Shown piece after piece: positions 60,403 through 63,400 of a stretch of 64,000 nt of DNA (within the stretch, counting starts at the first letter, position 1; each line of letters starts with the position of its first letter). Under the pieces are notes generated by a model that did not search any database, was not told the origin of the DNA, and worked only from the letters and a program-made list of their open reading frames with translations. The stretch comes from Mytilus galloprovincialis (Eukaryota; Mollusca; Bivalvia; Mytilida; Mytilidae), in assembly GCF_965363235.1 (NCBI RefSeq), contig NC_134846.1:62609121-62673120 (forward strand), written 5' to 3'. The position numbers and the translations under genes are program-made.

Positions 60403-63400
60403 TCACATGACATCTTGTTCAAATTTGAGTAATCCGATGGTAGGTTCATATGTTCCCGCCAAGTAATATACATCACAACTCTCTAATTTATCACATTTCC
60501 CGCGTCTATAGTCTGTGTAAGAGATGACGTCACATTTATGAGAAATTGTTTGAACGTCATTCTCATCGAAATGTGGGGACTGGAATAGAGCTCTCTGTAA
60601 TAAAGATATATAACCCTGTTAATAATATCAAAAGCTACTAAAAAGTTCGCACTTCAGTTTTATCCTGATTGCTCGCTTATAGTTATCAAAGGTACCAGGA
60701 TTATAATTTAGTACGCCAGACGCGCATTTCGTCTTCATAAGACTCATCAGTGACGATTATATCAAAATATTTATAAACCCAAACAAGTACAAAGTTGAAG
60801 ATCCAAAATTCCAAAAAGTTGTGCCAAATACGGGTAAGGTAATCTATGCCTGGTTTAAGAAAATTCTTAGTATTTCGAAAAATTCAAAGTTTTGTAAACA
60901 GGAAATTTATGACATTGACCACAATATTGATATTCATGTCAACACCAAAGTATTGACTACTAGGCTGGCGATACCCTCGGGGACGAAACGTCCACCAGCA
61001 GTGGCATCGACCCAGTGTTGTAAATAGTTATCAAAGGTACCAGGATTATAATTTAGTACGCCAGACGCGCATTTCGTCTACATAAGACTCATCAGTGACG
61101 CTCATATCAAAATATTTATAAACCCAAACAAGTACAAAGTTGAAGAGCATTGAAGATCCAAAATTCCAAATAGTTGTGCCAAATACGGCTAAGGTAATCT
61201 ATGCCTGGTATAAGAAAATCCTTAGTTTTTCGAAAAATTCAAAGTTTTGTAAACAGGAAATTTATGAAATTGACCACATTATTGATATTCATGTCAATAC
61301 CGAAGTATTGACTACTGGGCTGGTGATATCTTCGGGGACGAAACGTCCACCAGCAGTGGCATCGAAAATTGTAAATAGTTATCAAAGGTACCAGGATTAT
61401 AATTTAGTATGTCAGACGCGCATTTCGTCTACAAAAGACTCATCATAGACACTCATATCAAAATATTTATGAATCCAAACTCGCTAAGAATTCCTATGTA
61501 GCAATAATAATTCCCAACAAAACAGTTGCTATTGACATAATAGTTACATTTAAACAAGTGAAATATATATTTTATTGGTTTAACATCACAATGCTATAAT
61601 AACAGCAAGTACAAAGAAATGATTTTCCCTGAAATATCTAATGATGAAACTATTTAAAATGGAAAAAATCAGCTGCTACTATTTTTTAGCCAGATACAAA
61701 ACTTCAGTCGTATTATTTGATGACAAGGTATGTAGACTATTCTTAGACAAGATTTTTTCTGAAAACCATTTTCAGTGGCGGATCCAGGGGGGGGGTAGGG
61801 GTTCCGGGGGTTTGAACCCCCCCTTTTTTTAGCCGATCAATGCATTTGAATGGGAGCATATAGTTGGAATCCCCCCCCCCATTTACTCTGGGTTGGGAAC
61901 CCCCCTTTTTAAAATGGCTGGATCCGCCGCTGATTTCATTAGCTTTGTCTATAATTGAGAGAAAAAAATCGTTTTACATGATAACTATTTCAACACGATA
62001 AACATTAACACTTAATATTCTTTATAAAGCAGTCTACCATAATAATATAACAATTGAAATAGCAAACCTTCATGTCCTGTAGTTTTTTACCACCACGTGT
62101 TTCCTCGGGATGATAAAACCATTTGACCTTGACAGTCATTTGTCCTCCCCACGATTCCCACATACTATCAATGCGACCGATATACGGTAAGTGAGGTCTT
62201 CCTGTAGATAGGAAAACGGCACAGTCTCCAACCTGAAAGATAATCACTTTACTTTTAAGCATTTATTAGTTAATAGAATCATACACAGAGGAAAAGATAA
62301 TATACAATGAAAATTATGATCCAAAACTTTTACCAAAAGGGAATTAAAAGGCTGCATGTGTTAATTTTTAAGACAAATTAACAATACTTTTAAATTCAAG
62401 CAATTAAAATAAAAAAAACACACCACACGTATTCTACACTCATTGGTTGCAATCTTGACAGACGATACAAAACACATTACTCAACTTTAAACATTTATTA
62501 CATTATACCAATTAATCAAAATATTTACTTTTATTTCCTCTTTCCCACGGACAATTTCTCTGTAAAATTCTTTCTTTGCTTTTCCTTTCATGCCAGGCCT
62601 TTTTGTGCTTTTACCATGCCAGCGCCATAGCTGTCGTGGAGGTATAAAAGCTACAAAAAAGTTTGATTATCAACAAATTAACAAAACAAGTACAATAATC
62701 AAAACGATTGTCCAACAATATTGGCATCTATGTTTTGTGTTGTATTTCTAAGGCATACCAATAACCTCAGAGACAGGACTATTTATTATTCGCTTTATTA
62801 AAAATATATTTTATTTCATTTTTTAAACGGCTATTCGCTTTATTACAAATATATTTTATTTTTAAAACGGCTAAGACTTTTTATGGTCTTTCGGCTGTTT
62901 TTTGTTTTTCCCATTGCCTTGTCAGTTCATTTTCGACTAATGATTCTAGATTATACTATGGTATGTTCCAACTCTCTTTCATACAATTTCTCTACAATTT
63001 CTTTCTACAAATTTTATATATCACATTTTTATAATGAAACGAAATCAGAAAATTTCATTTATACAAACACAACTTACAGTCTATTTTGATTATTCTAAAT
63101 CGAGGATTGAATGTCTCACTTTATGATATGGTATTATTTATGGCCCTTATTTAAATATTGGAGATAATTAGAGTGCATGAGGTTTCTTTGCGTCCGAAAC
63201 GCAAGTATGTAACGGAGAAATCCAATAGGTGAAGAGCACCTAGATATTTCTGCAATTATAATTTCAATTTCTAACATGACTTTCATGTCTTAATATCTAT
63301 TCTTTTAAATTGAAACGTTGCAGTGATAAAAACTAATGACACATAGACGACCTACATGATATTATACTCAGGTATCTTTATAACATAATAGTGCAAGATA

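Follow-up and report, generated by a model that had tools for sequence, protein, structure and literature searches.

Described retrozymes and Penelope-like elements

Retrozymes of the mussel Mytilus galloprovincialis were reported to cleave themselves and to occur as circular RNA (PMC7229834). In the text of that study available to us, a cloned member cleaved at about 0.1 per minute, the RNA was closed by RtcB in vitro, and circles were the dominant form of mussel retrozyme RNA. The same text names Penelope-like elements (PLEs) and LINEs merely as candidates for moving retrozymes, and gives neither a shared sequence nor a fixed junction.

For a PLE of Anolis, the available part of PMC11167929 reports that the PLE protein starts reverse transcription in vitro inside its own RNA, at a site without a match to the target, and that genomic copies end at this internal start site. 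Retrozymes as well as PLEs are also reported from the genomes of coral and axolotl. Beyond the hammerhead, no sequence common to retrozymes and PLEs was reported in the portions available of the literature found (PMC7229834, PMC11167929, PMC7761336, PMC10886601, PMC10294476, PMC11722881).

A hammerhead array in a BAH-domain intron

We analysed a window of 64,000 nucleotides from M. galloprovincialis. A mussel host was supported by 17 matches over the cut-off to Myticin, a mussel family. On its minus strand we recognized a BAHCC1/TNRC18-like gene, with an intron of 1473 nt (60595..62067; GT at 62067, AG at 60595) splitting the BAH domain. The exon with the N-terminal half of the domain (62068..62232, minus strand, upstream end placed by eye) scored 36.3 bits with the Pfam BAH profile. 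Its best matches among solved structures were BAHCC1 (PDB 6vil, E 6.1e-28) and TNRC18 (8ds8, E 4.5e-26). The last coding exon, with the C-terminal half (60403..60594, minus strand), was recognized by its reading frame and matched positions 60–114 of the profile, under the cut-off (E 0.0036, 17.6 bits).

The intron contained a retrozyme array of 2.3 units (60679..61480, minus strand). TRF gave a consensus period of 355 with 2.3 copies, and the G + C content was 0.358. At its 3′ end, the array comes within 84 nt of the intron's acceptor end. The ribozymes run in the direction of the gene, and the GT/AG intron ends together with the split BAH domain support the claim of an earlier note on this DNA, that the array sits in an intron of a BAHCC1-like gene with its hammerheads in sense orientation.

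Each unit carried a hammerhead on the minus strand, which agrees, together with the TRF array, with the 2.3-unit organization described before. The matches to RF00163 (E-values for 2.1 kb searched) were 29.3 bits and E 1.3e-4 for the type I motif of unit 2 (61058..61101), 26 bits and E 1.6e-3 for that of unit 1 (60713..60756), and 27 bits and E 7.2e-4 for the motif in the partial 5′ unit (61409..61452). Because all three are under the Rfam gathering score of 34, a search of the whole window at that score listed nothing, and the motifs appeared only at an E-value threshold. The type I covariance match expected at 61058-61101 was thus obtained, at a score short of the gathering level.

As the earlier reading had it, units 1 and 2 keep every core base (CTGATGA...GACGAAA...GTC), and their predicted cuts, at 60719/60718 and 61064/61063, are 345 nt apart. 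The third unit reads TATGATGA, has lost C3 and is predicted to be dead. All three window units have GAAATGCGCGTC, versus GAAACGCGCGTC in 84 of the 97 core-intact units of the family; the window type occurred in five of the 97, two of them the window's own. With U in place of the C found in most family members, helix III of the window units would have a U-G instead of a C-G pair. In isolated 44-nt folds of the three motifs, the hammerhead was not the minimum-energy structure. In the available part of PMC7229834, amphibian retrozyme motifs with a weak helix III had better activity as dimers, so that, by analogy, a dimer between the two intact hammerheads of the window may be possible.

The retrozyme family in the mussel genome

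The sequence identifies the window array as an old copy from a family of mussel non-LTR retrozymes such as Cervera & de la Pena (2020; PMC7229834) described. It has several features by which retrozymes are recognized: a type I hammerhead in each unit, tandem units in the range of 150–450 bp, a G + C content below 50% and a dispersed, multicopy distribution as dimers to multimers. With the M. galloprovincialis retrozymes, as described in the text available from PMC7229834, it shares the mussel host, the type I hammerhead, tandem units of ~350 bp, the low G + C content and thousands of copies, a likeness of size, layout and host; unlike them, the window copy is decayed and intronic. The animal retrozyme identity proposed earlier was borne out, the array being a copy of the mussel family.

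The 21-mer at the family's 3′ junction, which is the insertion end (60679..60699, minus strand), had 10,653 exact places in the genome, versus none for the reversed control. With the retrozyme unit as query, 40 scored candidates gave at least 99 matches, spread over many contigs of a 1.385 Gb genome; among the matches listed, the best full-length ones reached 96%. We found 37 hammerhead loci in the genome, and all 20 that were fetched matched the window unit across the ribozyme. The ribozyme core was intact in 97 of 109 near-full family units (48 loci), and in 86 of 95 when loci picked by ribozyme score were excluded. This conservation of the core was reached by 2 of 10,000 random column sets, and by 239 of 10,000 without the loci chosen by ribozyme score; the signal is partly ascertainment.

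Retrozyme units clustered by locus, with a mean difference of 2.5% within and 6.5% between loci. The nearest relative was in the same locus for 65 of 89 units (at most 7 with shuffled labels) and in another locus for 24. The window array is a weak example of this clustering: the difference between its two full units is 4.8%, and for unit 2 the sequence of another locus, L008, is closer (3.8%).

In the fetched locus L071, an array at about 4342-7216 of that locus has ~8 units with a mean difference of 0.1%, so that this array is either very recent or homogenised. At 0-based phase 53–72, the L071 unit has a UUCG loop on a perfect stem of 8 bp (GTCAACAC-TTCG-GTGTTGAC), adjoining the PLE-like stretch described below. 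In the window, further decayed retrozyme pieces were found on the minus strand at 37537-37693, 37992-38310, 38348-38528, 40102-40186, 44996-45241 and 51298-51358, and one on the plus strand at 43582-43667; six of the seven thus share the direction of the intronic array. Other tandem arrays of the window were at 33477-34469 (period 499, two copies) and 53572-55000 (a cluster with periods from 13 to 260).

These data bear on the suggestion that the ribozyme pair has a special role in the BAH gene. As a host device, the pair would cut the BAH pre-mRNA and either free a 345-nt circle or alter how the last exon is spliced or processed at its 3′ end. The presence of two core-intact sense hammerheads, in an array only 84 nt from the acceptor end, is in its favour, and the available text of PMC7761336 cites hammerheads in amniote introns for which conserved roles have been proposed. 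However, the array is one among thousands of insertions, its full units are 4.8% apart, one of its three ribozymes lacks the core base C3, and all three have a weakened helix III. The suggested role found no support, and we consider a host device very unlikely. Cleavage at about 0.1 per minute is slow beside usual splicing. It is this rate that the text available from PMC7229834 gives for the M. galloprovincialis clone, which also speaks against a host device. Under the preferred reading, an old retrozyme insertion, the intronic copy would now most likely be carried along passively, its ribozyme activity weak at best.

Fixed 3′ ends and variable 5′ ends

We compared array ends in the fetched loci using the natural tandem array L071. 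From 97 pieces, we left out 5 that were cut by the locus end, 27 with less than 85% identity and 7 that were abutting or split (L054, L058, L071), keeping 58 clean arrays. The 3′ end was at unit phase 340–350 in 51 of the 58, ~41 nt downstream of the ribozyme cut, and the other 7 ended away from this junction. Excluding the loci selected by ribozyme score, 33 of 38 arrays had the fixed 3′ end. The 5′ ends were spread over the unit, yet not uniformly (KS p 0.005; 0.007 without the loci chosen by ribozyme score), and in none of the 58 clean arrays was the 5′ end at the ribozyme cut. In the window array, the fixed 3′ end is at 60679 and the variable 5′ end at 61480.

The junction was also read from single insertions. 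Among 20 sampled places of the junction 21-mer, 14 stopped 0–2 nt further on in unrelated flanks and 6 continued into a next unit. This sample, like that for the PLE below, comprised every fifth of the first 100 places listed, all on contig C1.

The clean arrays were 0.10 to 4.57 units long, 41 of the 58 exceeding one unit and 17 having one unit or less, to which L071 adds an array of ~8 units. All clean arrays except one (57/58) exceeded 0.12 unit, very short inserts being unlikely to be caught by these searches. A linear monomer cut by the ribozyme offers only ~41 nt from the junction, and therefore nearly all arrays require a circular or multimeric template.

Could such arrays be plain satellite DNA, grown by unequal crossing-over, with the common 3′ end as a feature of recombination? 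Long uniform arrays do occur, as L071 with its ~8 units and 0.1% mean difference, and crossing-over of the satellite type may have lengthened some arrays. As a general explanation it is most improbable, given the dispersed insertions, the 17 of 58 arrays with one unit or less, the single fixed end and the unrelated flanks; moreover, copies of a PLE stop at the same end point (see below).

Target-site duplications, which in retrozymes are longer than 4 bp when present, showed a small, weak excess. In 55 arrays, the mean score was 4.96, versus 4.48 when permuted (largest of 300 permutations 4.92), and repeats of at least 8 were found in 2 of the 55, versus 0.65 expected. In a set of 51 arrays, the mean was 3.61 versus 3.03, a value reached by 23 of 1000 permutations, and 6 of the 51 had an exact repeat of at least 7 bases, versus 1.06 expected. 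The window array is flanked by a CTCGCT pair (60672-60677 and 61480-61485). We do not claim this pair as a target-site duplication; a 6-base repeat is reached by 8.7% of all pairings.

A Penelope-like element with the same end point

Starting from a degraded reverse transcriptase (RT) fragment at 57227-57571, we traced a PLE family with 150 scored matches, many of them in long open frames. The fetched locus L072 is a tandem stretch of a young, abundant PLE. A single frame of L072 gave a match to GIY-YIG (E 0.0014, 19.3 bits) before one to RT (RVT_1, E 1.3e-4, 22.2 bits), both under the Pfam cut-offs (22.6 and 29.6, respectively). This order resembles that of the permuted PLEs called Naiads. 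Against solved structures the frame gave no match (best E 0.54). Tandem copies, which in PLEs give rise to pseudo-LTRs, were evident from two RT matches on the same strand, 3370 bp apart, and from the frames of both units in L072. A minimal hammerhead in the pseudo-LTR is reported for many PLEs and was absent from the one L072 copy read: one full unit gave no match to Rfam even at E up to 5, and neither of its strands contained a CTGANGA core.

The ends of PLE copies were fixed as well. A genome search with a 301-base query listed near-full-length copies only (40/40 scored) and was uninformative on ends, which were therefore read by 21-mer sampling. From 9,008 exact places of the PLE 21-mer, 20 were sampled; all 20 stopped 1–7 nt after it, 11 of them directly after TTTA. 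In the window, five of seven PLE pieces ended at L072 sense 1070-1079, the fixed 3′ junction of the family. Among these, a degraded copy on the minus strand (56382..57571; L072 match 56382-57520) contains the RT fragment (RVT_1, E 0.047, under the cut-off), and decayed copies that end at the junction were found at 8010-8192, 48914-49020 and 50654-50702 (minus strand) and 9840-10494 (plus strand). The other two pieces, 37458-37520 and 49623-49690, end elsewhere, short of the junction.

Retrozyme and PLE share a stretch that spans the retrozyme junction and lies just upstream of the PLE ORF. In the alignment with L072, 86 of 112 columns were identical (77%). The alignment score was 110, versus at most 38 in 500 mononucleotide shuffles. 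In a control with 500 random 400-base pieces of the window, which itself contains retrozyme and PLE copies, the top score was 121, from a single piece, and the second was 34. By blastn of L072 against the window, the stretch was found twice in the intronic array, at 60949..61017 (E 1.8e-10), just 3′ of the supposed reverse-transcription start, and at 61304..61365 (E 6e-10), both on the minus strand. In the alignment, ~4 nt separate the usual end points of the two elements, each of which precedes a shared ACCACTGGGTCGATG by a few bases. No consensus RNA structure was found for the shared stretch, and the retrozyme and PLE versions fold differently.

The likeness could be a matter of descent only, the retrozyme having budded from a PLE and being moved today by other machinery, e.g. 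a LINE. The shared stretch is just ~110 columns long with 77% identity, LINEs are left as candidates in the available texts of PMC7229834 and PMC11722881, and the latter proposes that retrozymes arose by reduction of PLEs. Descent alone, however, fails to explain that the usual end points of both elements are still ~4 nt apart, and we consider it unlikely.

Proposed mobilisation by the PLE machinery

The explanation that we favour, with high confidence, is that the window array is an old retrozyme insertion, made by PLE machinery that copied circular or multimeric RNA from a shared element. From the motifs, the fixed ends and the shared stretch, we infer that the PLE protein binds this stretch and copies retrozyme circles.

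In this scheme, retrozyme RNA would cleave at its hammerheads, and a ligase, most likely one of the host, would circularize the monomers. The retrozyme would carry the PLE element, ~20 nt before and ~85 nt after the supposed start of reverse transcription. The PLE protein would recognize this element, begin copying at an internal point of the circular or multimeric RNA, proceed for anything between part of a unit and several units, and halt at a variable place. A fixed internal start and a variable stop would yield insertions that share one 3′ end, differ at the 5′ end and often contain units in tandem. The window insertion would have occurred long ago, in sense orientation, within the BAH-domain intron.

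Whether the template was circular is a sub-question compatible with this reading. An uncut multimeric transcript could have served instead of circular RNA; genome data do not distinguish the two templates, and in the part of PMC11167929 available, the RNA on which the Anolis PLE worked in vitro was mainly unprocessed. On the other side, circles dominate mussel retrozyme RNA (PMC7229834, available text), and the nearest relative was in the same locus for 65 of 89 units. We regard the uncut multimer as possible, yet the less probable template.

The logic of copying in Anolis fits both mussel elements. As in PAc of Anolis (Frangieh et al. 2024; PMC11167929, available part), copies of the mussel PLE end at an internal site and occur in tandem. 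Unlike PAc as described there, the mussel PLE has a putative GIY-YIG before the putative RT, the copy read lacks a hammerhead, and the end point is outside the ORF, ~80 nt before the frame's first ATG. The retrozyme and its putative partner can also be compared with a second kind of pair. SINE-LINE pairs share a 3′ tail, the non-autonomous element bearing the recognition element of its autonomous partner. The mussel pair resembles them, in that the non-autonomous element carries the putative recognition element of its partner; unlike in SINE-LINE pairs, the common stretch lies around an internal start, and only a circular or multimeric template would serve.

We consider it probable that mussel retrozymes are, more generally, parasites of a specific PLE, the hammerhead making the circle and the PLE start element giving fixed-point, often repeated copying and tandem insertion.

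Implications

Taken alone, the intronic locus adds a further copy to a described kind of element. The wider result is that an animal retrozyme has a likely partner in a PLE, as suggested by the sequence comparison. If true, this names the mobiliser of an animal retrozyme, for which PLEs and LINEs have so far been candidates in the available texts of PMC7229834 and PMC11722881, and the partner would be a PLE that has no hammerhead of its own in the copy read. The fixed junction and the stretch shared with the PLE make the question of what moves retrozymes directly testable by biochemistry, with named sequences. Copying of retrozyme RNA by a PLE would also give a route to tandem units without satellite expansion.
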